A program made the position numbers and the translations under genes. Under the pieces are notes generated by a model. That model had not been told where the DNA came from. It ran no database searches and saw nothing but the letters and a program-made list of their open reading frames with translations. Below, piece after piece: positions 28,375 to 63,723 of a DNA stretch of 64,000 nt. This stretch comes from Warburgia ugandensis (Eukaryota; Streptophyta; Magnoliopsida; Canellales; Canellaceae), in contig CP141136.1 of assembly GCA_035236585.1 (NCBI GenBank), forward strand, positions 55,321,136 to 55,385,135, in the 5' to 3' direction. How positions within the stretch are numbered: position 1 is the stretch's first letter; every line of letters starts with the position of its first letter.

Positions 28375-28611
28375 AGGTGAATGATTAGAGAATTGGTATT
28401 TTACAAAATTAAAATATTTATTTAGAAGGTTAGTCATGCAGAGACGCATTGAATGAAGTATAACTGAGAAAAAAAGATTAGACTAAAGAAGGCCTACCTA
28501 ATGATCCTGTCTTTTTCTACAGGTTTTAATTACTGATCAGGTTGATTATCTTTTCATCTTTAAGATGCTTTGGATTTCTCTTCTTCTTCTTCTTTTTTTT
28601 AATATTTTGGT

Positions 28612-28700
28612 GTGCAATGGCACAAAGAGTCTCTCAATTTGGTGACTAGAGTTCGAGATTGTGCATGGGTGAGTGTGTTTGACTCTGAAAAAAAGAAAAA
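28612..28700 (+). mobile_element. tRNA-derived SINE-like fragment
   Basis: GTGCAATGGCACAAAGAG resembles a box A region, and CTAGAGTTCGAGATTGTGC a box B, followed by an A/G-rich tail. Resembles the fragment at 18446. No target duplication found. Confidence 0.4.
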
Positions 28701-29132
28701 GAAAAGAAAAAGAAAAAAGAAGAGTCTTGTAAGTGTGGATGCTTTGATATTGTAAACTCCCATACATAGTGATGATTTTTCTTAGATCTAAGCCATCCAT
28801 CATCTTAGTAATTGCTGAGATAGGTTATAGATCAAATTTCATGTCCTTTGGATTCTATTAGCTTATATTTGTTTAAATTGAAGATCAAAACAATCATTTT
28901 TTATGAAGATCCAAAACAAGCAGTTTAGATAATTCACATGCATTGATTTCCATGGGTTCTCTAATTTCTACACCCCCAACAAGCAAACATGATGTATGGC
29001 TTAGATCTTCCAAAACTAGACTCTCTACACTATTTTACGGAAACTCCAACAAAAAATAAAATAAAATAAAATGGTGTTGTTTGTGTGAACGATGTTAATT
29101 GGTTACCCTCTTTTTTTTATTCTTTTTGTTTT

Positions 29133-31101: not shown

Positions 31102-31284
31102 CAAAAGGGCAGCCTTGGTGCACCAAGCTCCAGGGTATGCAGGGTCCGGAGAAGGGGTGGACCACAAGGGTTAATAGTACGCAGCCATACCTAGTATTTT
31201 GCGATAGGCTGTTTCCACGAGTTGAACCCGTGACCTCAAGGTCACACGATGACTACTCTACTGTTATGCCAAGGCTCCCCTTCT
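31102..31284 (-). mobile_element. Au-like SINE, copy G (full length)
   Basis: Minus strand: GGGGAGCCTTGGCATAACAG head, box B GGTCACGGGTTCAACTCG, TGTGGTCCACCCCTTCTCC and an end GCACCAAGGCTGCCCTTTT. A 19-bp target duplication with two mismatches lies at 31083-31101 and 31285-31303 (AAAACC..A.TGTTCTACT). Confidence 0.88.
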
Positions 31285-31303
31285 AAAACCTTAGTGTTCT
31301 ACT

Positions 31304-36129: not shown

Positions 36130-36523
36130 GAGGCGATGAGGAGGTAGAAAACGTAAAGCAAGAGGAAAGGAAAGCGAACCCTAAAGAGGAAAGGCAGAAG
36201 AAGAAGAAAAAGCAGCCGAATAGCAGCAGCGCCAATTTCCCTTCTCCAATTCTCTCTCGTTGTGAATGGTGGAAACCGTCCGCATTTTCATGCTTCTGCC
36301 CTCCTCGGTTCTTCCACCGAGGGCAGGATTTCCCGACGCGCAGTTTCCTTCCTTCTCCGTTCTTCTCTCCGCCGCTGCTGCCGCCGCCGCTTCCTTTGGA
36401 TCTCGCTCTCAGGGCTGGTACTACCGCTGCCTTGGACTCGATCCGTGACGAAACCTATTTGCCTTCTCTTTTTCCTTTTCTGAACAGAAATAACAAAGAA
36501 TTCATCGATTGGATCGATCGAAG
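36130..36523 (+). promoter_or_regulatory. Probable 5' leader of the DUF7054 gene
   Basis: Composition switches from AT-rich to purine-rich and then CT-rich with GCCGCTGCTGCC-like triplets, typical of plant 5' leaders. The transcription start cannot be fixed by eye. An upstream ATG at 36266 opens a 60-codon frame to 36448, ending 75 bases before the main ATG. Confidence 0.5.
36266..36448 (+). other. Upstream ORF in the DUF7054 leader
   Basis: ATG at 36266, 60 codons (MVETVRIFMLLPSSVLPPRA at the start), TGA at 36446-36448. Unrecognised peptide. If it is in the mRNA it would probably lower translation of the main frame. A spliced leader intron could remove it. Confidence 0.4.
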
Positions 36524-37026
36524 ATGTCGATCTTGTTACAGAAGCAGAGGAAGAATCATAATCAGTCCCGGAAAGGCGCTCGCTTTCTCATCACCGTCAG
36601 CGTTCTTGGCAGCGCAGGTCCTCTGAGATTTCTTGTTAATGAGGAGGAGCTCGTTGCTGCCGTGATCGAGACTGCGTTGAGATGTTATGCCAGGGAAGGC
36701 AGATTGCCTGTTCTTGGATCCGATCTCAATAATTTCCTTCTATACTGCGCAAACGCCGGATCTGACGGTAATTTATTCGTCTTCTGTTTGATTTATCTCT
36801 CGGTTTTCTTATGGCAATTTGATTTGCAGCTCTAAATCCTTGGGAAGCAATTGGATCTCGCGGAGGAAGGAATTTTGTCTTGTGCAAGAAACAACGCCAG
36901 ATTCAGATGAGGAGTGATGATGGAGGGAGATCGACGGCGACCACGACGGAGCTTGGAAGGAAAGCGAGTGGGAGTTGGAAGGCGTGGCTAAATAAATCCC
37001 TTAGTTTCAAGATCTCTTCTCACTGA
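36524..37026 (+). CDS. DUF7054-family protein (At4g22758-like), two exons
   Basis: Exons 36524-36767 and 36830-37026 give 146 residues. The donor is GACG|GTAATT and the acceptor GATTTGCAG; the junction completes an Ala codon, and the 62-base intron is short. After a basic start (MSILLQKQRKNHNQSRKGAR) comes the family domain, about residues 22-105: FLITVSVLGSAGPLRFLVNE, then AREGRLPVLGSDLNNFLLYC, NAGSDALNPWEAIGSRGGRN and FVLCKKQ. The tail is Ser/Gly-rich and ends SWKAWLNKSLSFKISSH. The domain has a ubiquitin-like flavour in its LLISVxVLGSxGP..V opening, but no function is established and none is claimed. The ATG at 36524 is preceded in frame by no other ATG. Confidence 0.92.
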
Positions 37027-39829: not shown

Positions 39830-40681
39830 ATACAAGGCTAAGTTCGTCGCGTCCAAACGTAGTGATGAGAACACAGATGTCAGATCAAACACGTGACTCA
39901 CATTGGCCAATATGTAGGAGACACATGGATATTAGTCTTATCCTATGACGATATAGAAAATAATTCGTGTATGAATAACGTACCACAGAAATTGGAAAAC
40001 TTAGAGATGATGGTCTCGGTAATAAGTTAACACAGCATCTATAAGACTTACGGACTCAAAAACTGAAAATGCAAATCCATTGTGCCCTTGTGCCCGGCCG
40101 GTGGTCAGTGAACATTACTGATTGGCTATGAGATTACACTCACAATGGATGATCTGACCCGTTCATCCTATTTTTGGCCCCCAAAACCCTAAAAACAAGA
40201 AAAACAGTAAAATTTAGTGAAGATCTGGACCATAGATCAAGCAGAAACTGAATGGACGGTCTAGACGCATTGTCCTGGTACGCCTAGGACACATCCGCCC
40301 AATGTGGAAAGTGGAACAGGCAAGTGTAGAGCGATTGTGCGCGCAGCACTATCGCACACGTTCAGCGTCACGCATGTGGGTTTTGGCAAGGATGTGATGT
40401 GCATCCTGGTGACTGGGATGCACCCACATGTGTCCTAGCGATTGAGACGTGTGTGCGTTGCAGACACTGTGCGTCCTGGGGACGTCATTTTTCGCATTCC
40501 TAGCTCGGATTTTGATCTAGACAGTTGGATCTTGATATGATTATATATAGTTAGATCAAAGACATAATAGATGATTTAGTGGAATTGATGGATAGATTTT
40601 ATGCATCTATTGAGGAAATTAATCTTGATCATCAGTCTGACTATGAACCTTAGAATTGACCAATTAGAGAATGATCGAACT
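39830..40681. other. GC-richer flank left of the satellite locus
   Basis: Composition rises (CGCATCCTGG-, GTGTGCGTTGCAGAC-type words) between about 40.2 and 40.5 kb. The texture recalls the LTR or leader of a Gypsy-type element, but no ends, primer site or coding part were found. Confidence 0.3.
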
Positions 40682-41453
40682 ATTAGATCAATATACAATC
40701 ATGGATATACACTTGAATTGTTAGATAAACATGGAAATTGAGCTGATTGTGATAATTAGGACTGAAATTAGTGATCTAATCATAGATTGAGGCTATAAAG
40801 AACGATCCAATGGTTGGATCACACCCCCCCAAACTTAACAAGATTAGAAAATTTAGCCCTCTAGTGATTAGGAGGCATTGATTTAGCCGATCACAACTTA
40901 GATTGATAATCAGAGCTAGCAGATGACCATTTGGATGAAAAATAAAAATAAAAATTGATATTAAGACATGGATTGACTTGACTAAGGGTAGATCGAATGA
41001 TCGAGGCTGTTGATATAAGATTAACTATCAGATCAGAGGATTTATCACATTGATTGATTCACACTTGGGATTTGATGATCACCAAGTAATATAGATGAAG
41101 AGTAAAATAGACAGTGGGGCACATTTAGAGTAGTGGATGACATAGTGTAGTACTGTGACCTGACAGGTACATCAGAGCGCGCAAGTTGAAGTAGCTACGT
41201 GCCTAATTGAATTCTTTGTGTATTGAGGTAAGTGATTACATTTAGTATTCCCTTGATTTCATAGATCATGATGTGTTCATTAAGACGATTTCATTTACAG
41301 TAGCAGATTGATGCATGGACACGTATGACAATCTTATGTTTTCTTAAGACTATCTTTAGCATGCATTGTTGATGTCTATATTATCCTTTTGTTTCACATA
41401 ATCTATGCCCTATTTTTTATACATGATTATTGATATATTAGAACACCTTATTA
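40682..41453 (+). repeat. Left copy of the ~0.75-kb direct repeat flanking the satellite
   Basis: Matches 62968-63723 in the same orientation. Shared words in order: AAACATGGAAATTGAGCTGA, CAACTTAGATTGATAATCA, AAGACATGGATTGACTTGAC, CACCAAGTAATATAGATGAA, GTGGGGCACATTTAGAGTAG and TAGAACACCTTATT. I estimate roughly nine in ten bases identical. There is one ~20-base deletion in the right copy near its start. No coding content. Confidence 0.93.
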
Positions 41454-44400
41454 AGGTTTTGAATTGAGATTTTGTTGAAAGTATTCTCATAATTAGATGC
41501 TATTAGAAAAATGAAATTCAACGACACAAATAACACTAAAAACGGAGTTTGAATGAAAAAGTTATGAGTACTTAAAGTTGAAAGGCATTTTAGTAATTAA
41601 AATAATTTAAAAAAGGATTCAAAATGCTGGGGTCGTTTTGATAACGACACCCTCCCTTCATCTCCGCTTCTGCAACATCTATGCTAAGAAAAATGGTAGG
41701 CGGTCGCGTCGCCCACCTCCGGTCACCGTTTGTAGCATTAGGAAATAATGTAATTATTCAAATTTTAAAGTCCTATTTGAAAGATTAGATTGAATAGTTG
41801 GATGAATATTTTATAAATTTTCAATTGAGAATTTGTTGAAAATATTCTTATAATTAGATTCTATTGAAAAAAAAAAAATCCAACGACACAAAGAACACTA
41901 AAATGAGAGTTTGAATAAAAAGTTATGACCATTTAAAGTTAAAGGGCATTTTGGTAATTAAAATATTCAAAAAAGGATTCAAAATGGAGAGGCTGTTTTG
42001 ATAATGACACCCTCGCTCCATCTTTGCGTCTGCACCATGTTTGGCAGAGAAAGATGGAAGGCAGTCATGCTGCCCACCTTTGGTCAATGTTTGCAGCATT
42101 GAAAAATAATGTAACTACCCAAATTTTAAAGTCATATTTGGAAGATTGGATTGAATAGGAAGATGAATATTTTCTAATCTAGATGAGAGAATTTGTTGAA
42201 AATATTCTCATAATTAGATTTTATTCAAAAAATAGAATACAACGACATAAAGAACTGTGAAAATAAAGTTTGGATGAAAAAGTTATGAACATTTGAAGTT
42301 GAAGGGTATTTTAGTAATTAAAAGATTAAAAAAAGGATTCAAAATGCAAGAGGCTATTTTGCTAATGATACCCTCCCTTCGTCTCCCTGTTTGTGCTAAG
42401 AAATATGGTAGGTGGTCACACTGTCCACCTCCGGTCACCATTTGCGGCGCTAGAAAAATAATATAACTACTCGAATTTAAAATCCTATTTGGAATATTGG
42501 ATTGAACAGGAGGATTAATGTTTTATAAATTTTGAATTGATAATTTATTAAAATATTCTCATAATTAGATTCTATTCGAAAAATAAAATCCAAGGACACA
42601 TAGAACATAGAAAACGGAGTTCGGATGAAAAAGTTATGAGCATTTGAAGTTGAAGGGCATTTTATTAATTGAAATATTTATAATAAAAAAAAGATTTGAA
42701 ACGCAAGTGTCCACTTTGATAATGACACCCACCCTTCGTCTGGGTAACTACACCAAGAAAGACGGTAAGCGGTTGCACCGCCCACCTCCGATCACCGTTT
42801 GCAGCATTAGAAAATAATGTAACTACCCAAATTTTAAAGTCCTATTTGGATGATTGTATTGAATAGAAAGATGAACATTTTATAAATTTTGAATTGAGAT
42901 TTTTTTGAAAATATTCTCATAATTAGATTCTATTAGAAAAATAAAATCTAACGATACAAAGAACACTGAGGACAAAGTACAGATGAAAAAGTTATGAATA
43001 TTTGAAGTTGAAGAGCATTTTGGTAATTAAAAGATTTAAAAAAAGGATTCGAAATGAAGGGGACTATTTTGATAACAACATCCTCCTTTCTTCCCTCTAT
43101 GTTCTAGAAAGACGGTAGGTGGTCGCGTTGTCCACCTTTGATCACTATTTGCGGCACCGAAAAATAATGTAACTACTTGAATTTTAAAGTCTTATTTGGA
43201 AGATGGGATTGAATAAGAGGATGATTGTTTTATAAATTTTGAATTGAGATTTTGTTGAAAATATTCTCACAGTTAGATTCTATTCAAAAAATGGAATCCA
43301 ATGACACAAAGAACACTGAAGATGGAGTTCATATGAAAAAGTTATGAGCATTTGAAGTTGAAGGGCATTTTGATAATTGAAAGATTAAAAAAAAAAAAGT
43401 ATTCAAAATGCAAGGGCTATTTTGATAATGATATCCTCCCTTTGCCTCTATGTCGAGAAAGACGGTAGGTGGTCGAGCCCCCCACCTTTGGTCAACGTTT
43501 TCAGTGCCGAAAAATAATGTAACTACTTGAATTTTAAAGTCTTATTTAGAAGATGGGATTAAACAGGAGAATGAATGTTTTATAAAATTTGAATTGAGGA
43601 TTTGTTGAAAATATTCTCATAAATAGAATCCAATGACACAAAGAATACTGAAAACAGAGTTCAAATGAAAAAGTTATGAGCATTACAAAGTAAAGTGCAT
43701 TTTTGTAATTAAAAGATTCAAAAAAAAAGATTCAAAACAAAGGAGCAATTTTGATGACAACACCCCCCTCTGTCTCTGCATCTACGTTGAGAAAGACATA
43801 AGCGGTCGCACTGCTCACCTCCTGTCACCTTTTGCTGTGCCAGGAAATAGTGGAACTACCCAAATTTTAAAGGCCTATTTGGAAGATTGGATTGAACATG
43901 AGGATGAATGTTTTATAAAATTTGAATTGAGAATTTGTTTTAAAAATTTTCATAATTAGATTCTATTTGAAACATGAAATCTAACGACACAAAGAACACA
44001 GAAAATGGATTTCGGATGAAAAAAGTTGTAAGCATTTGAAGTTGAAGGGCATTTTGGTAACTAAAAGATTAAAAACAAGGATTCAAAATGTAGGGGCCAT
44101 TTTGATGATGACACCCTTCCTCTGTCTCCTCATCTATGCCGAGAAAGATGGTAGGCGATTGTGCTGCCCACATCTGGTCACCATTTGTGGCGCCGAAAAA
44201 TAATGTAATTACCCAAATTTTAAAGGCTTATTTGAAAGATTAGATTCAACAAGAGGATGAATATTTTATAAATCTTGAATTGAGATTTTTTGAAAATATT
44301 CTCATAATTAGATTCTATTTGAAACATGAAATCCAACGACGCAAAGAACATTGAAAATAGAGTTCGGATAAAAAACTTATGACCATTTGAAGTTGAAGGG

Positions 44401-47313
44401 CATTTTTGTAATTAAAAGATTAAAAAAAATCACCATTTGTGGCGTTGTGAAATAATGTAACTACTCGAATTTTAAATTACTATTTAGAAGATTGGATTGA
44501 ACAGAAGGATGAATGTTTTATAAATTTTGAATTGAAAATTTGTTGAAAATATTCTCATAATTAGATTATATTTGAAAATGGAATCCAACGACACAAAGAA
44601 CACAAAAAACGGAGCTCAAATGAAAAAGTTATGAGCATTTGAAGTTGAAGGACATTTTGGTAATTAATATACTTAAAAAAGGATTCAAAATGCAGGAGGC
44701 CGCTTTGATAATAACACTTGCCCTTCGTCTTCGCATCTACACCTCATTTGCACCGCATCTGCGGTGAAAAAGATGTTAGGGGATTGCACCACCTACCTTT
44801 GGTTTCCGTTTGCAGTGTCAAGAAATAATGTAATTACTCACATTTTAAAGTCCTATTTGGAAGATTGGATTGAATAGTTGGATGAATATTTTATAAATTG
44901 AGAATTGAGAATTTGTTGAAAATATTCTCATAATTAGATTTTATTTAAAAAATAGAATCTAATGACACAAAGAACACTAAAAAATAATATAACTACTCAA
45001 AATTTAAAATCCTATTTGAAAGATTGAACTGAATAGAAGGATGAATATTTTATAAATTCAAAAGTGAGAATTTGTTGAAAATATTCTCATAATTTAATTT
45101 TATTCAAAAAATAGAATCCAACGACACAAAGAATGCTGAAAATGAAGTTTAGATGAAATAGTTATGCGCATTTGAAGTTGAAGGGCATTTTAGTAATTAA
45201 AATGTAGGGGGGTTGTTTTGATAATGACACCCTCCCTCCATCTCTCTCTCTACATCGAGAAGATGGTGGCGGTCACACTACCCACATCTAGTCACCATTT
45301 GCAATGTTAGAAAATAATGTATCCACTTGAATTTTAAAGTCCTATTTGGAAAATTGAATTGAATAGGAGCATTAATGTTTTGTAAATTGAGAATTGAGAA
45401 TTTGTTGAAAATATTCTCATAATTAGATTTTATTTAAAAAATAGAATCCAAAGACACAAAGAACACAGAAAACGAAATTTAGATGAAAAAGTTATGAGCA
45501 TTAGAAATTGAAAGGCATTTTGGTAATTAAAAGATTAAAAAATAATTCAAAATGAAGGGGCAATTTTGATAATGACACTTTCCCTCCGTCTCTGCGTTTG
45601 CATCGAGAAAGACGGTAGATAATCATGCCGCCCACCTCTGGTCATCGTTTATGGCACTGGGAAGTAATGTAACTACCCGAATGTTAAAGTTCTATTTGGA
45701 AGATTGGATTGAACAGGATGATGAATGTTTTTATAAATTTTGAATGGAGAACTTTTTGAAAATATTCTCATAATTAGATTCTATTCCAAAAATAAAATCC
45801 AACGAGATAAAGAATACTATAATCAGAGTTTGGATTAAAATTTTATGAGCGTTACAAATTGAAAGGTATTTTGGTAATTAAAATTAAAAAAAAAGATTTC
45901 AAAATGAATGGGCAATTTTGACAATGACACTCTTCGTCTCTGCATTTATGTCGAGAAAGAAGGTAGGCGATTGTGCCGCCCACGTCTTGTAACCATCTGC
46001 AGCGTTGAAAAATAATATAACTACCCAAATTTTAAAGTCCCATTTGAAATATTGGATTGAACTAGAGGATGAATGTTTTATAAATTTTGAATTGAGAATT
46101 TGTTTAAAATATTTTTATAATTAGATTCTATTAAAAAAATAGAATCCAATAACATAAAGAACACTAAAAATGGAGTTTAAAAGAAAAAGTTATGAGCATA
46201 AAAAATTGAAGGCAATTTGATAATTAAAAGATTAAAAAAAAGGAGGCAATTTTGATAATGACACTCACTCTCCCTTCGACTTTGTGTTTGCGTCGAGAAA
46301 GATGATAGGAGGTTGTGCTGCCCACCTCTTTTCATTGTTTGTAACACCGAAAAATAATGTAATTGCCCGAATTTTAAAGTCCTATTTGGAAGATTGGATT
46401 GAATAGGAGGATAAATGTTTTATAAATTTTGAATTGATAATTTGTTAAAAATATTCTCAGAATTAGATTCTATTTAAAAAATAAAATCTAACGACACAAA
46501 GAACATAGAAAACAGAGTTGGGATGAAAACGTTATGAGCATTTGAAGTTGAAGGGCATTTTGGTAATTAAAAGATTCAAAAAAGGATTCAAAATGCAAGG
46601 AGCTGTTTTGATAATGACACCCTCTCTCGTCTCCCTATTTGCATTGAGAAGGATGGCAAGCGGTTGTAGCACCCACCTTCGGTCACCATTTGTGGTGTTG
46701 AAAAATAATGTAACTACCAGAATTTTAAGGTTTTATTTGGAAGATTTGATTGAACAAGAGGATGAATGTTTTATAAATTTTGAATTGAGATTTTGTTAAA
46801 AATATTCTCATAATTAGATTTGATTTGAAAAATGGAATCCAACGATACAAAGAGCACTAAAAATGGAGTTTAGATGAAAAAGTTATGAGCATTTGAAGTT
46901 GAAGGGCATTTTTGTAATTTAAGACTAAAAAAAGGATTCAAAACGCAGGGGCAATTTTGATAACCACACCTTCCCTCTGTCTCTGCGTCCGCATTATGTC
47001 TGCACTGCATCTGTGCTGAGAAAGATGCTAGGCGGTCAAGCCACCCACCTTTGGTCACCGTTTGCGGCGTCAAAAAATAATGTAACTGCCCAAATTTTGA
47101 AGTCCTATTTAGAAGATTGGATTGAACAAAAGGATGAATGTTTTATATATTTTGGATTGAGAATTTGTTGAAAAAATTCTCATAATTAGTTTCGATAAGA
47201 AAAATGAAATTCAACGATGCAAAGAACATTGAAAATGTGATTTGGATGAAAATTTTATGAGCATTAGAAATTGAAGGAAATTTTTGTAATTAAAAGATTA
47301 AAAAAGGATTCAA

Positions 47314-47441
47314 CCTTGCTTGTAGTTTTCTTTTTTTCATCGAGATTGGGTTGGTGTTCAGTGTACATTACTGTATCGAAAAGAATGCACTAGATGGATG
47401 CCCGGGCATTGAGAAGGAAGGATGCTTTCAAAGGTGAAGCA
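47314..47441. other. Non-satellite insertion of ~128 bp inside one monomer
   Basis: The monomer runs to GGATTCAA, then unrelated sequence (CCTTGCTTGTAGTTTTC to AAAGGTGAAGCAA) follows, and the monomer resumes at GGACAATTTTGATAATGAC. About eight monomer bases are missing at the join. Origin unknown. Confidence 0.8.
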
Positions 47442-50400
47442 AGGACAATTTTGATAATGACACCCTCCCTTCGTCTCTGCGTTTGCGCCGAGAAAGATGG
47501 TAGGCGGTCGTGCCGCCCACCTCTTATCACCATTTGCGGTGTCGAAAAATAATGTAACTACTCAAATATGAAGTCCTATTTGGAAGATTGGATTGAATAG
47601 GAGGATAAATGTTTTATAAATTTTGAACTGAGAATTTGTTGAAAATTTCTCATAATTAGATTTCATTTGAAAAATAGAATCCAACAATACAAAGAACACA
47701 GAAAACGGAGTTCGAATGAAAAAGTTATGAGCATTTGAAATTAAAGGGCACTTTGGTAACTAAAAGTTTAAAAAATAGGATTCAAAATGCAAGGAGCTGT
47801 TTTGAATACGACACCCTCCCTCCATCTCCCTGTCTCCATCAAGAAAGATGGTAGGTGGTCGCGCTGCCAACCTCCGATCACCGTTTGTAACGCCAAAAAG
47901 TAATGTATCTACCTGAATGTTAAAATACACTTATAATTAGATTCTATTTGAAAAATGGAATATGATGACACAAACAACACTAAAAATGGAATTTGGATGA
48001 AAAAGACATGAGCATTTGAAGTTGAAGGGTATTTTGGTAATTAAAATATTTTAAATATGGATTCAAAATGTGGAATGTTGTTTTGATAATGACACCCTCC
48101 CTTCGTCTCCGTGTCTACATTGCGTTTGCATTGAGAAAGACGATAAGAGGTTGTGCCACCTACATCTGGTCATCATTTGTTGCACCAAAAAATAATGTAA
48201 CTATGCAAATTTTAAAGTCCTATTTAGAAGATTGGATTGAACATGAGGATGAATGTTTTATAAATTTTGAATTGAGAATTTGTTGAAAATATTCTTATAA
48301 TTAGATTATATTCAAAAATGAAATCTAACGACACAAATAACATTGAAAATGGAGTTCGAATGAAAATGTTATGGGCATTTGAAGTTGAAGGGCATATTGG
48401 TATTTAAAATATTAAGAAAAGGATTCAAAATGCAATGGCCGTTTTGATAGCGACACCCTTCCTCCATCTCCCCTTCTACACTGCATTTGTGTCTAGAAAG
48501 ATGGCAGGCGGTCCCACCACCTACCTCTGATCACTGTTTGCAATGCTAGGAAATAATGTAATTACTTAAAATTTAAAGTCCTATTTGGAAGATTGGATTG
48601 AACAGTTAGATGAATATTTTATAAAATTTGAATTGAGAATTTGTTGAAAATATTTTCATAATTAGATTTTATTCAAAAAATGGAATCCAATGACACAAAG
48701 AACACTGAAGATAGAGCTTAGATGAAAAAGTTATAAGCATTTGAAGTTGAATGATATTTTTGTAATTAAAATTTTTTTTTTAAAGAATTCAAAATGCAAG
48801 GGATGTTTTGATAATGACACCCTCTCCTTCTCTACATTTGCGTCACATATGCACCACGACAACACCGAGAAAGACGGGAGGTTGCACCACCCCCCTTCAG
48901 CCACTATTTGTGGCATCGAAAAATAATGTAACTACCTGAATTTTAAAGTCTTATTTGAAAGATTGGATTGAACAAAAGGATGAATGTTTTATAAATTTTG
49001 AATTGATATTTTGTTAAAAATATTCTCATAATTAGATTCTATTCGAAAAATGGAATCTAAAGATACAAAGAATACTGAAAACGGAGTTTGTATGAAAAAG
49101 TTATGAGCATTTGAAGTTGAAGAGCATTTTAGTAATTAAAAGATTAAAAAAGAAGAAGAAAGGATTCAAAATATAGGGGCAATTTTAATAACAACACCCT
49201 CCCTCCTTTGCGTCTACGTCGAGAAAGATGGTAGGCAGTTGCGTCGCCCACATTTAGTCACCATTTGCAACACTAGGAAATAATGTAATTATCTAAATTT
49301 TAAGTTCTTATTTAGAAAATTGGATTGAACAAGAAGATGAATGTTTTATAAATTTTGAATTGAGATTTTGTTGAAAATATTCTCATAGTTAGATTCTATT
49401 CAAAAAATGAAATCTAACGACACAAAGAAAACTGAAAATAGAGTTCGATGAAAAAGTTATGAGCATTTGAAGTTGAAGGGCATTTTTGTAATTAAAAGAT
49501 TTTTAAAAAAGTATCCAAAACACTAGGGGCAATTTTGATAATGACACCCTCACTTTGTTTGCGTCGCATCCGCACCGAGAAACACGATAGGTGATCTCAT
49601 GAACCACCTTTAATAAACGTTTGTGGCATCAAGAAATAATGTAACAGTACGAATTTTAAAGTCCTACTTAGAAGATTGAATTGAACTAGAGGATGAATGT
49701 TTTATAAATTTTGAATTGAGAATTTGTTGAAAATATTCTGATAATTAGATTCTATTTGAAAAATAGAATCCAACGACATAAAGAACATTGAAAATGGAGT
49801 TTGAATAAAAAAATTATGAGCATTAGAAATTGAAGGGTATTTTTGTAACTAAAAGACTACAAAAAAAGGATTCAAAATGCATAGGCAATTTTTATAGTGA
49901 CACCCTCCCTTCATCTCTGCGTTTGCATCAAGAAAGATGATAGGTGATTGCACCACCTACCTCTTGTTACTATTTGTGATGCCAAAAAATAATGTAACTA
50001 CTCGAATTTTAAAATCCTATTTGAAAGACTAGATTGAACAGGAGGATGAATGTTTTATAAATTTTGAAATTTGAATTTGTTGAAAATATTCTCATAATTA
50101 GATTATATTCAAAAAATGAAATCCAATGCACAAAGAATACAGAAAATGGAGTTTGGAGGAAAAATATATGAGCATTTGAAGTTGAAGGGCATTTTGGTAA
50201 CTAAAAGATTAAAAAAGATGATTCAACAAGCATTGGGCCATTTTAACAATGACACCCTCCCTTCGTCTCCTCATTTGCGACGAGAAAGATGGTAAACAGT
50301 TGCGCCGATCACCTCCGATCACCGTTTGCAACCCAAAAAATAATGTAACTATCTGAATTTTAAAGTCCTATTTAGAGGATTGTATTGAATAGGAGGATGA

Positions 50401-51369
50401 ATGTTTTATAAATTTTAAATTGATAATTTGTAGAAAATATTTTTATAATTAGATTCCATTTCTAGTGAAATAAAGAACACTAAAAAGGGACTTTGGATGA
50501 AATAGTTATGAGCATTTGAAGTTGAAGGGCATTTTGATAATTAAAAAAATTAAAAAATAGATTCAAAATGAAGGGGTTGTTTTGATAACGACACCCTCCC
50601 TCCGTCTTCACATATGCGCTGAGAAAGACGGTAGGAGGTCGCGCCACCCGCCTTCAATCACCATTTATTGTGCCAGGAAATAATGTAACTACCCAAATTT
50701 TAAAGTCCTATTTGGAAGATTGGATTGAATAGGAGGATGAATGCTTTATAAATTCTAAATTGAGAAATTGTTGAAAACATTCTCATTATTAGATTCTATT
50801 CGAAAATGGATTTCAATGACACAAAGAACACTGAAAATGAAATTCGAATAAAAAAGTTACAAGTATTTGAAGTTGAAGTGCATTTTGGTAATTAAAATAT
50901 AAAAAAAAAAAAAGGATTCAAAACGTATGGTCCATTTTGATAACAACACCTTCACTACATCTTTGTGTTTGCACTTCGTCTATGCCAAGAAAGGCAATAA
51001 GCAGTTGCGCCACCCACCTCCAATCACTGTCTACAGTGCTAGGAAATAATGTAATTATCCAAAATTTAAAGTCTTATTTGAAAGATTGGATTGAACAATT
51101 GGATGAATGTTTTATAAATTTTGAATTGAGAATTTGTTGAAAATATTCTCATAATTAGGCTCTATTCGAAAAATGGAATCCAACGGCATAAAGAATACTA
51201 AAATAGAGTCCGAATGAAAAAATTATAAGCATTTGAAGTTGAAGGGTATTTTTGTAATTAAAAGATTAAAAAAAAGGATTCAAAATGTAGGGGGTAGGTT
51301 TGATAACGATGCCCTCCCTCCGTTTATGTGTCTGCGCCACATCAACCGTATCTGCGGGGAGAAAGATGG

Positions 51370-51530
51370 TAGGCAATCGAGCTACCCATCTTGGGTCACT
51401 ACTTATGGCATCGAAAAATAATGAAACTACCTAAATTTTAAAGTCCTAGTAGGTAGTTGCGCCGCTCATCTCGAGTCACTACTTATGCCATTGAAAAATA
51501 ATGAAACTACCCCCAATTTTAAAGTCCTAT
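51370..51530. repeat. Partial duplication inside a satellite monomer
   Basis: The block TCACTACTTATG.CAT.GAAAAATAATGAAACTAC to AAAGTCCTA occurs twice, at about 51395 and 51474, an ~80-bp direct duplication limited to the GC-rich end of one monomer. Confidence 0.8.
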
Positions 51531-54500
51531 TTGGAATATTGAATTAAATAGGAGGATGAATATTTTATAAATTTAGAAGTGAGAATTTGTTGAAAATATT
51601 CTCATAATTAGATTCTAATAAAAAATGAAATCCAATGACATAAAGAACATTGAAAACGAAGTTTGGATGAAAAAGTTATGAGCATTTGAAGTTGACGAGC
51701 ATTTTAGTAATTAAAAGATTAAAAAAAGGATTCAAAATGCTGGCGGCTGTTTTGATAACGACTCCCTCCCTTCGTCTCCTTGTTTGCATTGAGAAAGACG
51801 GTAGGCAATCGCACCACTCATCTCTGGTCGCCATTTGCTGCGACGAAAAATAATGTACTTGCCTGAATTTTAATGTCCTATTTGAAAGATTGGATTGAAC
51901 AAAAGGATTAATGCTTTAAAAATTTTGAATTGAGAATTTGTAAAAAATATTCTCGTAATTAGATTTTGTTGGAAAAATAGAATCCAATGACACAAAGAAC
52001 ACAGAAAATGTTGCTCGAATGAAAAAGTTATAAACATTTGAAGTTGAAGGGCATTTTGATAATTAAAAGATTCAAAAAAGGATTCAAAATGCATGAGGCT
52101 ACTTTGTTAACGACACCCTCCCTTCGTCTCCGCGACTGTGCTAAGAAAGACGGTAGGTGGTCGCATCACCCACCTCCAGTCACTGTTTGCAGCACTGAGA
52201 AATAATGTAACTATTCCAATTTTGAAGTCCTATTTGGAAGATTGGACTGATCAGGAGGATGAATGTTTTATAAATTTTGAATTGAGATTTTGTTAAAAAT
52301 ATTCTCATAATTAGATTCTATTTAAAAAATAGAATCCAATTACATAGACCAATGAAAACGGAGTTCAGACGAAAAAGTTATGGGCATTTGAAATTGAAGG
52401 GCATTTTATTAATTAAAATATTTTAAAAAAGGATTCAAAACTCAGGGACTATTTTGATAAGGACATCCTCCTGTGTCTGCATCGTGTTTGCATCGAGAAA
52501 GATGATAGGTGATCGCATCACCCACCTTCGATCACTGTTTTCAACGTCGAGAAATAATGTAATTACCCAAATTTTAAAGTCCTATTTGGAAGATTGGATT
52601 GAACAATTGGATGAATGTTTTATAAATTTTGAATTGAGAATTTGTTGAAAATATTCTCATAATTAGATTTTATTCGAAAAATGGAATCTAATGGTACAAA
52701 GAACATTGAAAATAGAGTTCAAATGAAAAAGTTATGAGTATTTGAAGTTGAAGGGCATTTTAATAATTAAAATTTTAAAAAAAGATTCAAAATGCAGTGG
52801 ATCATTTTGATAGAGGCTCCCTCCCTCCATCTCCCTTCTACACTGTCTGCACCGCGTTTGCATGGAGAAAGATGGTAGGCAGTTGTGCACCCATCTTTGG
52901 TCACTGTTTGCGGAGTGAGAAAATAATGTAACTATCCAAAATTTTAAAGTCCTATTTGGATTATTGCAGTGAATAGGAGGATGAGTATTTTATAAATTTA
53001 GAGGTGAGAATTTGTTGAAAATATTCTTATAATTAGATTCTATTCAAAAAATAGAATCTAACGACATAAAGAAGATTGAAAACAAAGTTTTTTGAAAAAT
53101 TTATGAGCATTTGAAGTTGATGAGCATTTTAGTAATTGAAAGATTGAAAAAATGGATTCAAAATGCAGGGGCCGTTTTGATAATGACCCCTCCCTCCGTC
53201 TCCCTATTTTCGTTGAGAAAGATGGTAGGCGGTAGCATCGCCCACCTTCGGTTACCATTGCAGCGTTCAAAAATAATGTATCTACTTAGATTGAACAGGA
53301 AGAGGTTTTATAAATTTTGAATTGAGAATTTGTTGAAAATATTCTCATAATTAGATTCTATTTGAAAAATGGAATCCAACAATACAAAGAACACTGAAAA
53401 CGTAGGATGAAAAAGTTATGAGCATTTAAAGTTGAAGGGCATTTTGATTATTAAAAGATTAAAAAAAGGATTCAAAATGCAAGGGGCCGCTTGATAACAA
53501 TACCCTTCCTTTGTCTCCAAGACTGTGCAGAGAAAGACGGTAGGCAGTCACACTACTCACCTCCTATGATTGTTTGTAGTGTTGGAAAATATCTTATTTG
53601 GAAGTTTGGATTAAACAGGAGGATGAACATTTTATAAATTTTGAATTGAAATTTTATTGAAAATATTCTCATAATTAGATTTATTCAAAAAATAAAATCC
53701 AACAACATAAAGAAAACTGAAGATGTAGTTTGAATGAAAAGCTTATGAGCATTTTATGTTGAAGGGCATTTTTATAATTAAAAGATTCAAAATGCATGAG
53801 CTATTTTGATAACAACACCCTCCCTCCTCAACGTCTGCATCAAGAAAGACTGTAAGTGGTCACATTGCCCACCTTCCGTCACCGTTTACAACACCGAGAA
53901 ATAATATAACTACCCAAATTTTAAAGTCTTATTTGAAAGATTGGATTAAACAAGAGGATAAATGTTTTATAAATTTTGAATTAAGATTTTGTTGAAAACA
54001 TTCTCATAATTAGATTATATTTGAAAAATGGAATTGAATGACACAGAACAATGAAAACGGAGTTCGAATGAAAAAGTTATAAGCATTTGAAGTTAAAAGG
54101 CATTTTTGTATTTAAAAGATTAAAAAAAAGGAATCAAAATGCATGGGACAATTTTGATAATTCCACCCTCCCTCTGTCTTCGCGTCTATGTCTCGTTTGC
54201 AGTGTGTCTACACCAAGAAAGATGGTAGGCGGTTGTGCCGCCCACCTTCGGTCACTGTTTGTGGCACCTGAAAATAATGTAATTACCCAAATTTTAAAGT
54301 CTCATTTGGAAGATTGAATTAAGCTGGAGGATGAATGTTTTATAAATTTTGACTTGAGAAATTTTATGAAAATATCATCATAATTAGATTCTATTCGAAA
54401 ATAGAATCCAATGACGCAAAGAACACTTGAAGCAAATTTTAGATGAAAAAGTTATGAGCATTAGAAATTAAAGGGCATTCTTATAATTAAAAGATTTAAA

Positions 54501-56840
54501 GAAATGATTCAAAATGCAGGGGCAATTTTGATAATGATACCCTCTATCTCCACGTCTCCGCAAAAAAATTGGTAGGCAGTCGCGTTGCCCACCTCTTATC
54601 ACCGTTTATGGTGCCTGGAAATATTGTAACTACTCGAATTTTAAGGTCCTATTTGGAAGATTAGACTGAACAAGAGGATAAATGTTTTATAAATTTTGAA
54701 TTGAGAATTTGCTAAAAATATTCTCATAATTAGATTTTATTCGAAAAATGGAATCCAACGATACAAAGAATATAGAAAATAGAGTTAGGATGAAAAAGTT
54801 ATGAGCGTTTGAAGTTGAAGGGAATTTTAGTAATTGAAAGATTAGAAAAAAGGATTAAAAAAGAAAGACAGTAGGCAGTTGCATCGCCCACCTCCGATCA
54901 CCGCTTGTGGCAATAAAAAATAATGTAACTACCTGAATTTTAAAGTCTTATTTAAAAGATTGAACTGAACAGGAAGATGAATGTTTTATCAATTTTGAAT
55001 TGAGAATTTGTTGAAAATATTCTCATTATTATATTCTATCCAAAAATAGAATCCAACAACACAAAGAACACATAAAACAGACTTCTGATGAAAAATTTAT
55101 GAGCATTTGAAGTTGAAAGGCATTGAAGTAATTAAAATATTTTAAAAAAAGATTCAAAATGTAGGAGGCCATTTTGATAATGACACCCTCCCTCATCTTC
55201 TAGTCTGCATCGAGAAAGATAGTAGGCAGTGGAGCCGCCCACCTCTAATTACCGTTTGTGGCATCAAGAAATAATGTAAGTAGCCAAATTTTATAGTCCT
55301 ATTTGGAAGTCCAAATTGAACAGGTTGATGAATGTTTTATAAATTTTGAATTGAGAATTTGTTGAAAATAATATCATAATTAGATTCTATTTGAAAAATA
55401 GAATCCAAGGGCACAAAGAACACTAAAAACGGAGTTTGGATGAAAAAGTTATGAGCATTTGAAGTAGAAGGGCATTTTGGTAATTAAAATATTTAAAAAA
55501 TAGATTCAAAATGGTGGGGGCTGTTTTGATAATGACACACTCTCTCTGTTTGTGCTTTTATACTGTGTCTGTTCCGAGAAAGACGGTAGGAGGTCGGGCC
55601 ACCTAAGCCAGTCATCGTTTGTTGCATCGAAAAATAGTGTAAATATCTGAAATTTAAATTCATATTTGAAAGATTAGATTAAATGATGAATGTTTTATAA
55701 ATTCCTATGTAGTCACAGGCGCAACTAGTCGCTAGGCACAAAACGGCTCTAGCTTGCGACTCGGCTTCAGGTAGGCGCAAGCGACTAGTCGCACCCCTGG
55801 GTGCGCCTTGTTCCTAATGCACCCCCGATTCCAGGCGCAGGGTAAGTCACTTAAAACCCTACTTTTCGATTATTATTTTTTCATTCTTCTTCTTCCCCAT
55901 TCCATTGCTTCCTTTCTGAACAAGTGATCTTCCTTCCTTGTTTAAAGCCCATTTCAAGTATTTGAGATAAGATTGTGACTTTTATTTATTTCCTTCTTTT
56001 TTTTTTCTTTTTTCTTTTTTTTCTGTAACAATACAATAAAAACTAGTACCATTTTTTAATTTTTTTATGCATAATGCTTCATTTTTTCTTTGAAAACAAC
56101 AAATCCATACTCTAAAGCTAAAAATGATAACTGCATTTCATTCTTTCCATCTGTTTTCACTGATTTAGTGTATTATGTATTATATTTGTAGTTTTTTATA
56201 TTTTTTTTACCAAAAATGTAAAATACATTAGTAATTTGTATTTTTTAAAAACAAATATGCATATTTTCACCATTATAATGCTAAAAATGACTGACCCATG
56301 AGCTTCATGTACTCTTTTTGTTATTGTCTTTTTTTGTTGTTGTTATTTTTGACAAAAAACAGTGAAAAACAGTAAGGGTTTTATTTATTTATTTTTGTTT
56401 TGTAGCAAATGTGTAAATGCCACCATAGAAATGCTAAAAACAACTTATCAATAGAATCTTTTGATGTTTTTTCTTACTTTTTTTGTTTTTGTTTTTTCAC
56501 TAAAAACAGTAATTTTTTTAATTTAGTAATTTTTTTATAGTAAATGTGTAACATCACCATTATAATGCTGAAAGCAACTTATTCATGGACTGACTCCTTA
56601 GATGTTTTTTCTCCCAATTTTTTTGTTATTTGTCACTAAAAAATAGTTAAACATAGTAATTTTTTTGTTCCTAAGTTTTGTTTTGTTTCCATAACCTTCA
56701 TATTGTTCTATATTTCTTACTTTTGTATTGTTATTTATTTTATTTTGTTGTTCTATTTGTTTGCAGGGTTCCTCTTTTGATTGCTCGATTTTTTTTTATT
56801 CCCCTCTAATAGGTTCATATATTCCTATTGATACTACAAT

Positions 56841-57148
56841 ATGTCATCATCAAGGGGCTCCACCAATGCTTCTTCTAGGTCAATGGATCTAGAGTGGGAG
56901 TATGGAGAAGCACGGGATCCAAATGACAAAAATTTGGTATGGTGCAAGCTTTGTGGAAATAGATATAGTAGTGGGATATTCAAATTAAAGCAACATTTGA
57001 CAAGTGGCATAGGAATGCCAAAAAATGCTCTCTAGTCACTCCTGAGATATAAGAAAATTTTAGATTATAAGAATGAAACAAAGAAGAGGAAAGACTAGAG
57101 AGAGAATAACAAAGGAGATAAAATAGCTAGAAAATTTGTTTAGCTTGC

Positions 57149-57221
<73 letters not shown>

Positions 57222-59648
57222 GGTCGAGGTGTAGGAGATTGACAATACTAGGGTTGTTGGTCTTTTCCTTGGGGGTAAAAGGCGTAAGGTGCTCACGTAA
57301 CAAATAAAAGGGCATATTGATTATCTCTTTGCTCCCAACCCTAAGGCCCAGGGTAAAGGGAAGGCACTCATGTAACAAACGATAATGAATAGAGCATATA
57401 AGGAGTTTAGGACAAAAGCATGTTATTACATCACCTCTTAGTTCTATGAACATAGCATTACATTCAATGCTACTTGTAGTTGTCCAATCCAGACCATGTT
57501 AGAGGCAGTTGCACAACATGGTCCAGGTATATATCTTATATTTTTAATAATGAGTAGTCATATACTTGTTTTATCCTTTTACCTATCTTAGTATCGTACA
57601 TCATATAATCTTATGTGACTAAGGTTTTAAGGCACCCTCGTATCACGAGTTGAGGGTGAATCTTCTTCAAAAGCAAGTAGAGAAGACCAAAGTGTACATA
57701 GATCAACGTAGAGTTGATTGGAGTAGGTACATGTTTAGTGTCCTTTTTTGCATCCTTTTATTATTATATATTCCTTTCAAGTCTTAAAGTGAAACTAGCT
57801 ACTAACGATAAGAGTGCTCCATGGCTTTTATAGGTATAAATGCTCCATCATGTTAGATTGGTGGACCGACGACAAGGGTCGCACCCTTGTCAACTTTTTG
57901 GTGATTTGTCCAACTGGGATAGTTTTTTTTAAATCTCATGATGGGTTTGCGGATGTCAAGAGTGCAAACCTAATACTTCACATGCTAGAGAAGATGATCA
58001 ATGAAGCTGGAGAGAACAATGTACTTTAGGTAATTTTTTAATTTTATATCTATAAGCTTTTAAGTATTTTAAATTGTTTATAAGCATATAATGTAAGTTT
58101 ACCCTTTATAATTTAACTTTTTTTTTGTTTTTTTGTTTTTTTTCTATTTTAGGTTATAATTGATAATGCCTCCAACTGCATGGCTATGAGTTGAGAATTG
58201 ATGGTGAGGAGGCCACACCTATATTGGACCTTTTGTGTGCCTCACTGCATAGATTTGAAGTTAAATGACATAAGCATATTGGCAATTGTGAAGAAAATTG
58301 TGGTAGAAGCTAGGGTGATGAGAGTTTTTATATATAGCCACACACATGTCCTTCATCTTATGAGAAGATTTATAAAGAAAAAAGAATTGGTCAGACTTGT
58401 AGTGACGTGCTTCGCTACTAACTTCTTGAGCATAGAAAGCATTCACAACTTGAAGATAGAGTTGAGGGCAATATTCCATTGTTCAGGGTGGATGAACAGT
58501 AAATGGCCAAAAAGGCCTAAGAGTAAAAGAGCTGAAAAGATTGTATCGCACACCAACTTCTGAAACCACATCCTCTTTTGTTTGAAGATTATGGCTCCAC
58601 TCATAGAGGTTTTGAGGGTGGTGGACAGTGAGGAGAAGCTAGCAATGGGCTACATCTTTGAGGCTATAGCCAGGACAAAAGACAAGATTCAGTCCAATCT
58701 AGTAGGGGATGAGCACCAGGCCACTTATGTTTAGGGGATCATAAATAGTAGATGGAGTTCTCAGTAGGTTATATGATGGAGATGAGGCAGACATGGTGGT
58801 AGATTAGATATACATCTACAGACATGCTAAAAGCCTATTTGGCAATGACCTGACAATACGCAAAAGAAAACCCTAGCCCCTTGTAAGTATTTTATGTTAT
58901 TCTATATTTTAAGTTTTAACTTCTAATTTTTTTTTATTTTTCTAAATTTTAATTTTCTTCAACTTTTGTAGGTGAGTGGTGGATTACCTTTGGGGCTAAA
59001 GCCCCACATATTCAAACATTAGCCATTAGGGTTCTCTCCGAGATATGCAGTGCATCTCCTTGCGAGCGTAACCGGAATGCCTTTGAGAACGTAAGCTACT
59101 TAAATATTTAGATTTAGTAGTTATTAGTAATTTAGTATACATTCACTGTATTTTAAATTTATAAATACTTTTTGTTTTCATATCCATACTAAGAAGAGGA
59201 ATAGGCTACATGTTAAGACATTGAATGATCTAGTATACATTTAATGCAATTAGTGCCTTCGTCGTCGACATGAGGATCATTTGAAAATGCAAATGTATAC
59301 AGATCTTATTCTATTACGAGAGGTCGATGAAAGTGATGAGTGGATTGTTCAAGAGGATGCTGGAGATGATCTAGTGCATCAAGGTGATGACCTCACTTGG
59401 TTAGATGTTGAGCTTGCTGAAGGATCAAGTGAACATGATGCTCCATCTACTAGGCAATACCAGAGGTGAGGGAGGAGGCAAAGGGGGAGCCACATTTCTT
59501 AGTTTCAAGCTCATGCTCATCAAGAATTAGATTATGATGTTGGATAAGAGTAGGTCGATGATGAGGAGACTGAGGAGGATGTCTACATCTCTCAGGGAGA
59601 TGATTTTGATGATGATCTTGATCTTCATGATGAGGAAGAGGTGTAGGA
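56841..59648 (+). pseudogene. hAT transposase (BED, DUF659, hAT-C), decayed
   Basis: Segments in order: 56841-57035 BED zinc finger, DPNDKNLVWCKLCGNRYSSG with KLKQHL; 57440-57525, FYEHSITFNATCSCPIQTML then EAVAQHGPG; about 57635-57725, SYHELRVNLLQKQVEKTKVY; 57820-58029 DUF659, CSIMLDWWTDDKGRTLVNFL; about 58154-58560, VIIDNASNCMAMS, a stop, then RRPHLYWTFCVPHCIDLKLN; about 58975-59092, EWWITFGAKAPHIQTLAIRV then CSASPCERNRNAFEN, the hAT dimerisation region; and 59190-59640, KKRNRLHVKTLNDLVYI and an acidic tail. Stops (57033, about 58190, 59232) and lost frames make it inactive. Introns are likely between several segments. Confidence 0.88.
57148..57222. repeat. (ATG)n trinucleotide microsatellite
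   Basis: About 25 perfect ATG/GAT units inside the hAT transposase region, at a place where related transposases have an acidic run. In one frame it would encode poly-Asp, but in the frame continuing from the BED segment it gives stops. Confidence 0.97.
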
Positions 59649-60045
59649 AAATGACTCTTAAGTCTTAATAGTTAACTATAATATTTACTTTTCATTTATA
59701 AAACATTTGTTTGATTGTTTATTGTTTCTGGATTTACATGAAGATGATAGCAGATTGAGAGAGTAGTCCTTGCTACTCCCTGTTTGATTGTTTATTGTAT
59801 TTGTATGTTTCTCAACTTACTTCTTTGTGTATGATTGTCTGATTTAACCTTAAGTTGTTATTTTTGACAAGTATTTATTTATATCTTTATATCTGTATAT
59901 TTTATAATTTTTTGGGATTTTTTTTTCATTTTTAAAAATTTTTAAAACTCAATTTGCACCTTGACACCTAATCGTGCACTTAGTCCCTTTAGGCGCAAGT
60001 CACGCCCCTTGCGCCTAGGTGCGCCTTGCACCTGTGACTACGTAG

Positions 60046-62967
60046 ATAAATTATAAATTGAGAATTTGTTGAAAATATTCTCATAATTAGATTCTATTTG
60101 AAAATGGAATCCAATGACACAAAGAATACAGAAAATGGAGTTCGGATGAAAGAGTTATGACCATTTGAAGTTGAAGGGCATTTGGATAATTTAAATATTT
60201 AAAAAGAATTTAGAATGCAAGGGGCATTTTGATAATGATACCCTCCCACTGTCTTTGTGTGTGCACCGCATCTAAGCTGAGAAAGATGGTAGGTACTTGC
60301 ACCACCCACCTTTGGTCACCATTTGCAGAGCTAGGAAATAATGTAATTACCTAAAATTTAAAGTCCTATTTGGAAGATTGGAATGAACAATTGCATGAAT
60401 GTTTTATAAATTTTGAATTGATAATTTGTTGAAAATATTCTCATAATTAGATTCTATTCAAAAAATAGAATCCAATGATACAAAGAATACTAAAAACAGA
60501 GTTCGAATGAAAAAGTCATGACCATTTGAAGTTGAAGGGCATTTTGATAACCAAAAGATTAAAAAAGAGGATTCAAAATGTAAGGGGTCATTTTGATAAC
60601 TACACCCTCACTCCATCTTTGTGTCTTCACCATGTTTGCATGGAGAAAGATGGTAGGCGGTCACGACGCTCACCTCTAGTCATCGTTTGTGGGGTCAAAA
60701 AATTATGTAACTACCCAAATTTTAAAGATTGGATTAAATAGGATGATGAATATTTTATAAATTTAGAAGTTAGAATTTATTAAAAATATTCTCATAATTA
60801 GATTATATTAAAAAAAGGAATCCAACGATACAAAGAGCAGTGAAAACGAAGTTTAGATGAAAAAGTTATGAGCATTTGAAGTTGAAGGGCATTTTAATAA
60901 TTAAAAAAAAGAAAAAAAGAAAAAGAAAAAGAGATTCAAAATGCAAGGGGTGTTTTGATAATAATACCCTCCTCCCTCCATCTCCTTGTATGCATCGAGA
61001 AAGATGGTAGGTGATCGCACCGCCAACCTCTAGTCACCATTTGAGGCACTAGAAAATAATGTAACTAACTGAATTTTAAAGTCTTATTTGAAATATTGGA
61101 TTGAAAGGTGGATTAATGTTTTATAAATTTTAATTGAGAATTTTTTAAAAATATTCTAATAATTAGATTCTATTTGAAAAATGGAATCTAGCGACACAAA
61201 GAACACAGAAAATGGAGTTTGGATGAAAAAGTTAAGAGCAATTGAAGTTGAAGGGCATTTTGGTAATTAAAAGATAAAAAAGGATTCAAAACACGAGGGG
61301 CCACTTTGATAACAACACCATCCCTCTGTCTTCACAACTACACCGATAACGGTAGTAAGCGGTTGCACCCCCTACCTCCCGTCACTATTTGCAGTGCCAA
61401 AAAATAATGTAGCTATCTGAATTTTAAAGTCCTATTTGGAAGATTGGATTAAAGAAGAAGATGAATGTTTTATAAATTTTGAATTGAGATTTTGTTGAAA
61501 TTATTCTCATAATTAGATTCTATTTGAAAAATGAAATTCAGCAACACAAAGAACACTAAAAACATAGTTCGAATGAAAAAGTTACGAGCATTTGAAGTTG
61601 AAGGGTAATTTTATAATTAAAAGATTCTTTTTGAAAAATGGAATCCAATGACACAAAGAATAGTGAAAATAGAGTTTAGATGAAAAAGTTACGGGCATTA
61701 GAAATTAAAGGTCATTTTTGTATTTAAAAGATTAAAAAAAGGTTTTAAAACGCAAGGGCAATTTTGATAACGATACCCTCCCTCCATCTTAGCGTCTACA
61801 TCAAGAAAGATGGTAGGCAATTGCGCTGCCCCCCTCCTGTCATTGTTTGTGGGGCCGAAAAATAATATAACTTCCTGAATTTTAAAGTCATATTTGGAAG
61901 ATTGGATTGAACAGTAGAATGAATGTTTTATAAATTTTGAATTGAGAATTTGTTGAAAATATTCTCTTAATTAGATTTTATTCAAAAAATAAAATCCAAT
62001 ATCACAAAGAACATTGAAGACAGAGTTAGAATGAAAAGGATATGAGCATTTAAAGTTGAAGGATATTTTGGTAATTAAAATATTAAGAAAAGGATTCAAA
62101 ATGCAGAAGCTATTTTGATAATGACATGCTCCCTCATTCTAGGTGTCTGCTTCCCATTTGCATCGTGTCTATGCCAAGAAAAATTGTCGGCGGTGACGTC
62201 GCCCACCTTTGGTCACTGTTTGTGGCGTCGAAAAATAATGTAACTACCCAAATTTTAAAGTCTTATTTGGAAAATTGTATTGAATAGGAGAATGAATGTT
62301 TTATAAATTTTGAATTGAAAATTTGTTGAAAATATTCTCATAATTAGATTCTATTTGAAAAATGGAATCCAACATCACTAAAAACGGAGTTTGGATAAAA
62401 AAAAAGTTATAAGCATTTGAAGTTGAAGGGCATTTTGGTAATTAAAATATTAAAAAATGGATTCAAAATGTAGGGGGCTATTTTGATAACAACACCCTCC
62501 ATCTCCGCATCTACACTGTGTTTACGTCGAAAAAGACAGTAAGCAGTCGTGCCACCCACTTCCGATCACCATTTGTTGCTCTGAAAAAAAATTGTAATTG
62601 CTTGAATTTTAAAGTCTTATTTGGAATATTGGATTGAACAAAAGAATGAATATTTCATAAATTCTGAATATAGAATTTGTTGAAAATATTCTCATAATTA
62701 GATTCTATTCAAAAAATGGAATCTAACGACACAAAGACCATTGAAAATAGAGTTTGGATGAAAAAGTTATGAGCATTTGAAGTTCAAGGGCATTTTGGTA
62801 ATTAAATTTTAAAAAAAGGATTCAAAATGTAGGGGACTATTTTGATAACGACACCCACCCTCCGTCTCCACGTCTGCATTGTGTTTGAGTAGGGAAAGAC
62901 AGTAGGCGATCGTGCTGCCCACCCCTGGCCATCATTTGCAACACTGAAAATTAATGTAACTACTAGA
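60046..62967 (+). repeat. Satellite array, right part (about 9 monomers)
   Basis: The same ~350-bp monomer and orientation as the left part, resuming exactly after the hAT right end. TTATGA anchors lie near 60155, 60515, 60865, 61230, 61580, 61690 (a partial unit), 62040, 62405 and 62765. The last monomer breaks off at TAATGTAACTACTAGAATTG, where the right flank repeat begins. Confidence 0.96.
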
Positions 62968-63723
62968 ATTGTTAGATCAAAATCCAATCATAGATAAACA
63001 TGGAAATTGAGCTGATTGTGATAATTAGGACTGGAATTAGTTATCTAATCCTAAATTGAGGCTATAAAGAATGATCCAACGGTTGAATCTCCTCCAAACT
63101 TAACAAGATGAGAAAATTTAGCCTTCTAATGATTAGGAGACACCGATTTAGCCGATCACAACTTAGATTGATAATCAAAGCTAGTAGATGACCATTTAGA
63201 TGAAAGAAAGAAAAAAAAAAAAAAACTGATATTAAGACATGGATTGACTTGACAAAGGGTAGATCAAATGATCGAGGCCGTTGATCTAGGATAAACTACT
63301 AGATTAGAGGATTTATCACACTAATTGATTCATACTTGGGATTTGATGAACACCAAGTAATATAGATGAAGAGTAAAATGGATAGTGGGGCACATTTAGA
63401 GTAGTGGATGACATAGTATAGTACAATGACTTGATAGGTACATCAGAGTGCACAAGTTGAAGTGGCTACACACCTGATTGGATTCTCCACGCATTGAGGT
63501 AGGTGATTACATTTAGTATTTTCTTGATTTCTTGGATCATGATGTGTTCATTAAGGGTTTCATTTACAGTAGTAGATTAATGCATGGACACGTATGACAA
63601 TCTTATGTTTTCTTGAGACTATCATTAGCATGTGTTGTTGATGTCTATATTATCCTTTTGTTTCACATTATCTATGCCCTATTTTCGATACATGATTATT
63701 AATGTATTAGAACACCTTATTGA
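62968..63723 (+). repeat. Right copy of the ~0.75-kb direct repeat flanking the satellite
   Basis: Matches 40682-41453. It starts GTTAGATCAAAATCCAATCA and ends TTAGAACACCTTATT, exactly where the left copy passes into the first monomer. Beyond it the sequence is unique (GACTTAATCTTCCCAAG). Confidence 0.93.

Follow-up and report, generated by a model that had tools for sequence, protein, structure and literature searches.

Direct repeats enclose the body of LTR retrotransposons, including those with internal tandem repeats, and when staggered breaks or adjacent nicks open a plant chromosome, the sequence between the two nicks is duplicated and filler DNA can sit between the copies. Tandem duplications made in this way in plants are said to have been described by Schiml et al. 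in 2016 and by Vaughn and Bennetzen in 2014. Flanking direct repeats are also found around transposed genes in Arabidopsis, where they are reported often to match the orthologous target site (Woodhouse et al. 2010, PMC2869330). Circles of satellite DNA exist in plants (PMC2543021), and dispersed arrays of the Tribolium satellite TCAST reach tetramers in one paper and 10-mers in another (PMC3411249, PMC5844308).

The appearance of satellite arrays at new chromosomal places is an open question, and flanks that date the event separately from the inner repeats would show that whole blocks can move instead of growing on the spot. Here we analyse a 64-kb stretch of DNA (64,000 nucleotides, called the window below) in which a satellite array lies between two direct repeats, F1 and F2. 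Like the Arabidopsis transposed genes, for which repeats of up to 550 bp are reported, this locus is a block between direct repeats; unlike them, its cargo is a satellite array of ~17 kb and not a gene, and no donor or empty site is known (PMC2869330). TCAST in euchromatin, as far as these two sources describe it, is similar in that a satellite lies away from long arrays and dispersed copies show little homogenisation after insertion, but its multimers cluster on a tree, whereas the present locus has about 49 star-like units and long flanking direct repeats (PMC3411249, PMC5844308). Compared with the tandem duplications described at plant nicks and breaks, a 0.76-kb duplication with a 17-kb insert appears much larger. 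The features of the locus are as follows.

40677..41452, + strand: F1, the left flanking direct repeat (aligned to F2)
41447..41458, no strand: left join between F1 and satellite, with TTAT common to F and satellite
41457..55704, + strand: satellite array, first part, ~350-bp monomers (Tandem Repeats Finder, nhmmer model)
55697..55704, no strand: hAT target-site duplication, left copy, ATAAATTC (7/8 match to the right copy)
55705..60045, + strand: decayed hAT transposon interrupting the array (ends, target duplication, Pfam remnants)
60046..60053, no strand: hAT target-site duplication, right copy, ATAAATTA (7/8 match to the left copy)
60046..62965, + strand: satellite array, second part (nhmmer model, continuing to 62978)
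62961..62978, no strand: right join between satellite and F2, with an imperfect overlap around AATT
62966..63721, + strand: F2, the right flanking direct repeat (aligned to F1)

Structure of the array and its flanks

A sequence-only reading of this DNA had described a satellite bounded by direct repeats at their inner ends. Pairwise alignment agrees with this description: F1 and F2 are 90.0% identical over 750 gap-free columns (K2P 0.109, with the ends of the comparison, 40677-41452 and 62966-63721, placed by eye), and the array begins and ends at their inner edges. The flank coordinates given in that reading were correct to within about 5 bp. Besides four indels (20, 4, 6 and 2 bp), the two copies differ by 59 transitions and 16 transversions; by BLAST, with gaps counted, their identity is 88.7% over a 737-column alignment. 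The possibility that F2 is an assembly duplicate of F1, which the sequence-only reading had raised against itself, is contradicted by these 75 substitutions and four indels. Homology between the copies breaks off abruptly at their outer ends, and no third copy of F was found in the 64-kb window with nhmmer (E<=10). Exact patterns from F and from the satellite gave 0 matches each in viral contigs, a comparison that is uninformative for a plant.

The earlier observation that the flanks show neither TG..CA termini nor a target duplication also holds. F runs GAACTATTAG...ACACCTTATT, so that its ends are GA..TT, and no 4-, 5- or 6-mer is common to the two outer ends when 14 bases of each are compared (10 beyond F and 4 within it); taken as complete LTRs, F1 and F2 thus show neither TG..CA nor a target-site duplication of 4-6 bp. 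The initiator-Met primer motif (the only tRNA primer tried) is absent from the 80 bases after F1, the longest purine stretch in the 78 bases before F2 is a 9-base run, and the right end of F1 is adjoined by a normal satellite start. Pfam gave no match within F or next to it. Direct repeats enclose a body here as they do in LTR retrotransposons; F differs from these elements in that TG..CA, a target duplication, an initiator-Met primer site, a long purine tract and a Pfam match were not found. The claim that the flanks are not ordinary LTRs stands for intact LTRs on the first three of these grounds, within a procedure for LTR recognition that had no positive control (a Copia-type pair at ~20.2/24.2 kb was examined, and its ends were too unclear); F may still be the inner part of a longer LTR. 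F is AT-rich, and composition shifts near the left end of F1, from a GC content of 0.425 and a CpG o/e of 0.85 at 39841-40677 to 0.337 and 0.42 in F1.

At the left join, past CCTTATT, F1 enters the satellite while F2 reads on GACTTAATC. Of the short shared bases that the sequence-only reading had seen at both joins, TTAT on the left is there, while the overlap on the right is only imperfect, around AATT. The right-join motif, GAATTGTTAGAT, also occurs within F1 (about 40715), inside the 20 bp missing from F2.

Matches to the satellite model (350 positions) run from 41458, at model position 1, to 62978, at position 306. They comprise 55 plus-strand pieces arranged head-to-tail with a period of ~350, and 44 of these exceed 300 positions. 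The register is interrupted by seven breaks of 52-159 positions and one 106-bp insert. Without the hAT transposon the array measures ~17.2 kb, or 49 periods, and the model has no match elsewhere in the window (nhmmer, E<=10). Sequence-term and topic searches of the open-licence literature brought up no published account of this satellite. On the reverse strand there are 38 weaker matches to the model, all overlapping plus-strand units and all but one of them at or below 34.9 bits; the exception, one satellite unit at 52068-52342, reaches 78.7 bits against 34.9 for the next best. Inverted symmetry of the monomer consensus was considered and found no support, as 54 of 200 sequences from a first-order Markov model attained its score of 26; the one strong reverse match stands apart from this result.

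The body between the flanks is satellite array, as had been claimed, except for 4.34 kb that the earlier reading had missed and that belong to the hAT transposon. This insertion is bounded by a target duplication of 8 bp, and its terminal inverted repeats match at 18 of 20 positions. With stops read as X, its transposase is recognised in Pfam by DUF659 (E 2.3e-31, above the cut-off), and there is a remnant of the dimerisation region (Dimer_Tnp_hAT, E 0.0078, below the cut-off); the hAT-type transposase is thus represented by broken remnants only. A perfect (ATG)24 microsatellite lies inside the transposon at 57149-57221.

History and relative age of the array

Exchange between neighbouring units commonly maintains the uniformity of satellites. 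We computed divergence for the 44 near-full monomers, excluding the 11 of 55 pieces with 300 model positions or fewer. Their pairwise p-distances have a mean of 0.2125 and a standard deviation of 0.0210; when residues were permuted within columns (n=100), which amounts to removing shared ancestry, the standard deviation averaged 0.0205 and reached at most 0.0237. Adjacent monomers are as distant as any others (p-distance 0.2132, vs 0.2125 in shuffles, P 0.62), and a Mantel test gives a rho of -0.06 (P 0.22), so that homogenisation between neighbours is not seen among these 44. In the monomer tree, internal branches make up 6.9% of the length and support of 0.9 is reached by two of 41 internal nodes, and a little substructure within the tree is possible; likelihood mapping left 983 of 2000 quartets (49%) unresolved. 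Monomers differ from the consensus by 14.0% on average, and even the closest of the 946 pairs has a K2P of 0.18. These results show that the 44 monomers are statistically a star phylogeny and that the array is the fossil of one burst. A star-like array with no effect of neighbourhood implies that the monomers were copied from a near-uniform template in a short period and then decayed separately. The usual model for a burst of this kind would be rolling-circle copying.

Relative to the consensus, the satellite has lost C to T at a rate of 0.34 in CG, 0.30 in CHG and 16% in CHH contexts, which suggests that it was formerly DNA-methylated in all three. Given that this loss is heavy at CG and CHG sites, transitions are a poor clock for the array. 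Away from gaps, pairs of monomers differ by 0.063 transversions per site, vs 15/710 (0.021) for F1 and F2; at the array rate, the binomial probability of so few transversions in F is 1.2e-7. Among 5000 surrogate sets of two pairs of similar length, none was as low as F (taken one base shorter at each end), and a single one of the 946 monomer pairs does not exceed the upper confidence limit for F. The mutation regime of the array is unusual in its CG and CHG loss, yet the excess persists, at about twofold, when only A<->T exchanges are counted (0.044 in the array vs 9/439, or 0.021, in F; P 0.007).

Given equal rates, the array appears to have about two to three times the age of the sequence from which F1 and F2 descend, and the array and the flank duplication therefore probably did not arise together. 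Growth of the array in place, whether after the doubling of F or together with it, does not match a divergence that exceeds that of the flanks. Flanks could look younger than they are if rates differ, or if gene conversion between F1 and F2 was complete. We saw no evidence of patchy conversion, as the differences are spread evenly along F (bin test, chi-square P 0.13); this even spread argues against patchy conversion only, and not against complete conversion.

Origin of the flanked array

We tentatively favour an explanation in which a satellite block that was already old was inserted into F at a staggered break, with fill-in of single-stranded parts of 0.76 kb. The starting state would have been ordinary continuous sequence, running from the left side through F to the right. 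A chromosome break with nicks on opposite strands about 0.76 kb apart, followed by fill-in of both single-stranded parts, would have left one copy of F on each side. A satellite block of ~17 kb, made of roughly 49 units of 350 bp and old before it moved, would have been captured at the break and joined between the copies with the help of short base matches, TTAT at one join and an imperfect AATT at the other. Afterwards F1 and F2 would have diverged by 10%; the order of these events is one we infer from equal rates. The hAT transposon also inserted into the array, either before or after these steps.

Several observations support capture at a break, for which the repeat-flanked transposed genes of Arabidopsis, the satellite circles of plants and the tandem duplications at plant nicks or breaks are precedents. 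The locus has the order F, array, F. The homology of F stops at both joins, with short overlaps with the satellite; ends typical of an element, a target duplication and an initiator-Met primer site were not found; and the array predates the split of F1 and F2, given equal rates. A star-like array without a neighbour effect also fits a block that originated in one burst. On the other side, a 0.76-kb duplication with a 17-kb insert exceeds typical repair filler, and plant satellite circles, at hundreds to over 8,000 nucleotides, are smaller than 17 kb (PMC2543021).

All readings of this locus, including those that follow, rest on one locus within the 64-kb window, where no empty site was seen. 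Capture at a break is favoured on grounds of economy, since one event explains both joins, over a reading in which F1 and F2, as equally oriented members of one repeat family, have both been truncated; they would come either from two insertions or from one retroelement, as its 5' and 3' LTRs, after its inside and the inner ends of its LTRs were lost. This second reading, which we consider unlikely, needs several events, namely two copies or LTRs and a truncation at each edge of the array, and there is no further copy of F in 64 kb. It has attractions of its own: two copies cut on facing sides overlap exactly between the break points with no special mechanism, a possibility that the sequence-only reading had left aside, and F looks younger than the array, as a repeat that arrived later would. 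For the LTR form in particular, F is AT-rich and has no Pfam match in it or beside it, as would be the case for an LTR, and the sequence from the left side through F to the right presumably resembles, judging by eye, a Ty3/gypsy LTR from plants, which we counted in its favour. Neither an initiator-Met primer site nor a long run of purines was found beside the array, although truncated LTRs would lose them, and the different composition to the left of F1 argues weakly against one continuous LTR.

The sequence-only reading had suggested that flank and array were duplicated together as a large tandem unit. The simplest version of this idea is weakened, because there is a single array and, by transversions, its age appears to be some two to three times that of the split of F1 and F2. 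A modified form, in which a segment from F to a downstream array was duplicated in tandem and a deletion in the first copy then joined F to the array, would produce both joins by common events and fits the short shared bases, but it takes two events and predicts satellite beyond 64000, whereas the visible 279 bp to the right of F2 are free of satellite; we regard it as quite improbable. Insertion of a circle, another of the earlier suggestions, is marginally more improbable still: a circle bearing both F and the array would have integrated by homologous recombination at a lone genomic copy of F, giving the order F, array, F. Integration of circles has been proposed for the repeat-flanked transposed genes of Arabidopsis (PMC2869330), and recombination of a circle with a matching motif has been proposed for the spread of the Tribolium satellite (PMC3411249, PMC5844308); it would also leave the age of F1 and F2 free to differ from that of the array. 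It needs, however, an earlier neighbourhood of F and array, which would itself need explaining, and none is visible. An undescribed mobile element whose 0.76-kb termini are direct repeats and whose body is a satellite, also put forward earlier, would account for a body placed exactly between terminal direct repeats, but this proposal has gained no positive support and is very improbable: there is no target duplication, no recognisable end and no Pfam match in or beside F, the flanks and the body differ in apparent age, and the arrangement is known from one locus only.

If an old block was captured at a break, the locus could mean something broader, although we hold this to be doubtful: a fossil array of ~49 units, the product of one burst and decayed by then, would have been transplanted whole (~17 kb) into a break with a 0.76-kb target duplication, and long direct repeats at the flanks could then serve to recognise and date the landing sites of plant satellites.

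Other features of the window

No Rfam family (at gathering scores) and no tRNA was found in the 64-kb window. Judged by eye from its gene fragments and repeats, short dispersed ones among them, the window is presumably plant nuclear DNA. A piece of reverse transcriptase lies on the minus strand at 11944-12372, and a DUF7054 piece at 36494-36832. Direct repeats at 20223-20442 and 24191-24411, 87.9% identical and each containing three copies of a ~47-bp unit, enclose minus-strand Copia-like pieces; together they probably represent a decayed Copia element whose LTRs contain tandem repeats. The Copia-like pieces, near 20.5-23.7 kb, were recognised by eye, and the two that were tried had no Pfam match.

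A dispersed family of ~150-190 bp has six copies, at 2966-3145 (+), 5821-6006 (+), 15752-15936 (-), 17453-17598 (-), 28166-28324 (-) and 31103-31285 (+); on the opposite strand its sequence resembles, and may be, the plant Au SINE. At 7942-8648 there is a tandem duplication of ~350 bp, 96.9% identical, to which the satellite model has no match. Finally, diverged direct and inverted repeats (74-89%) are clustered at 25988-30019, which suggests nested or rearranged pieces of transposons.
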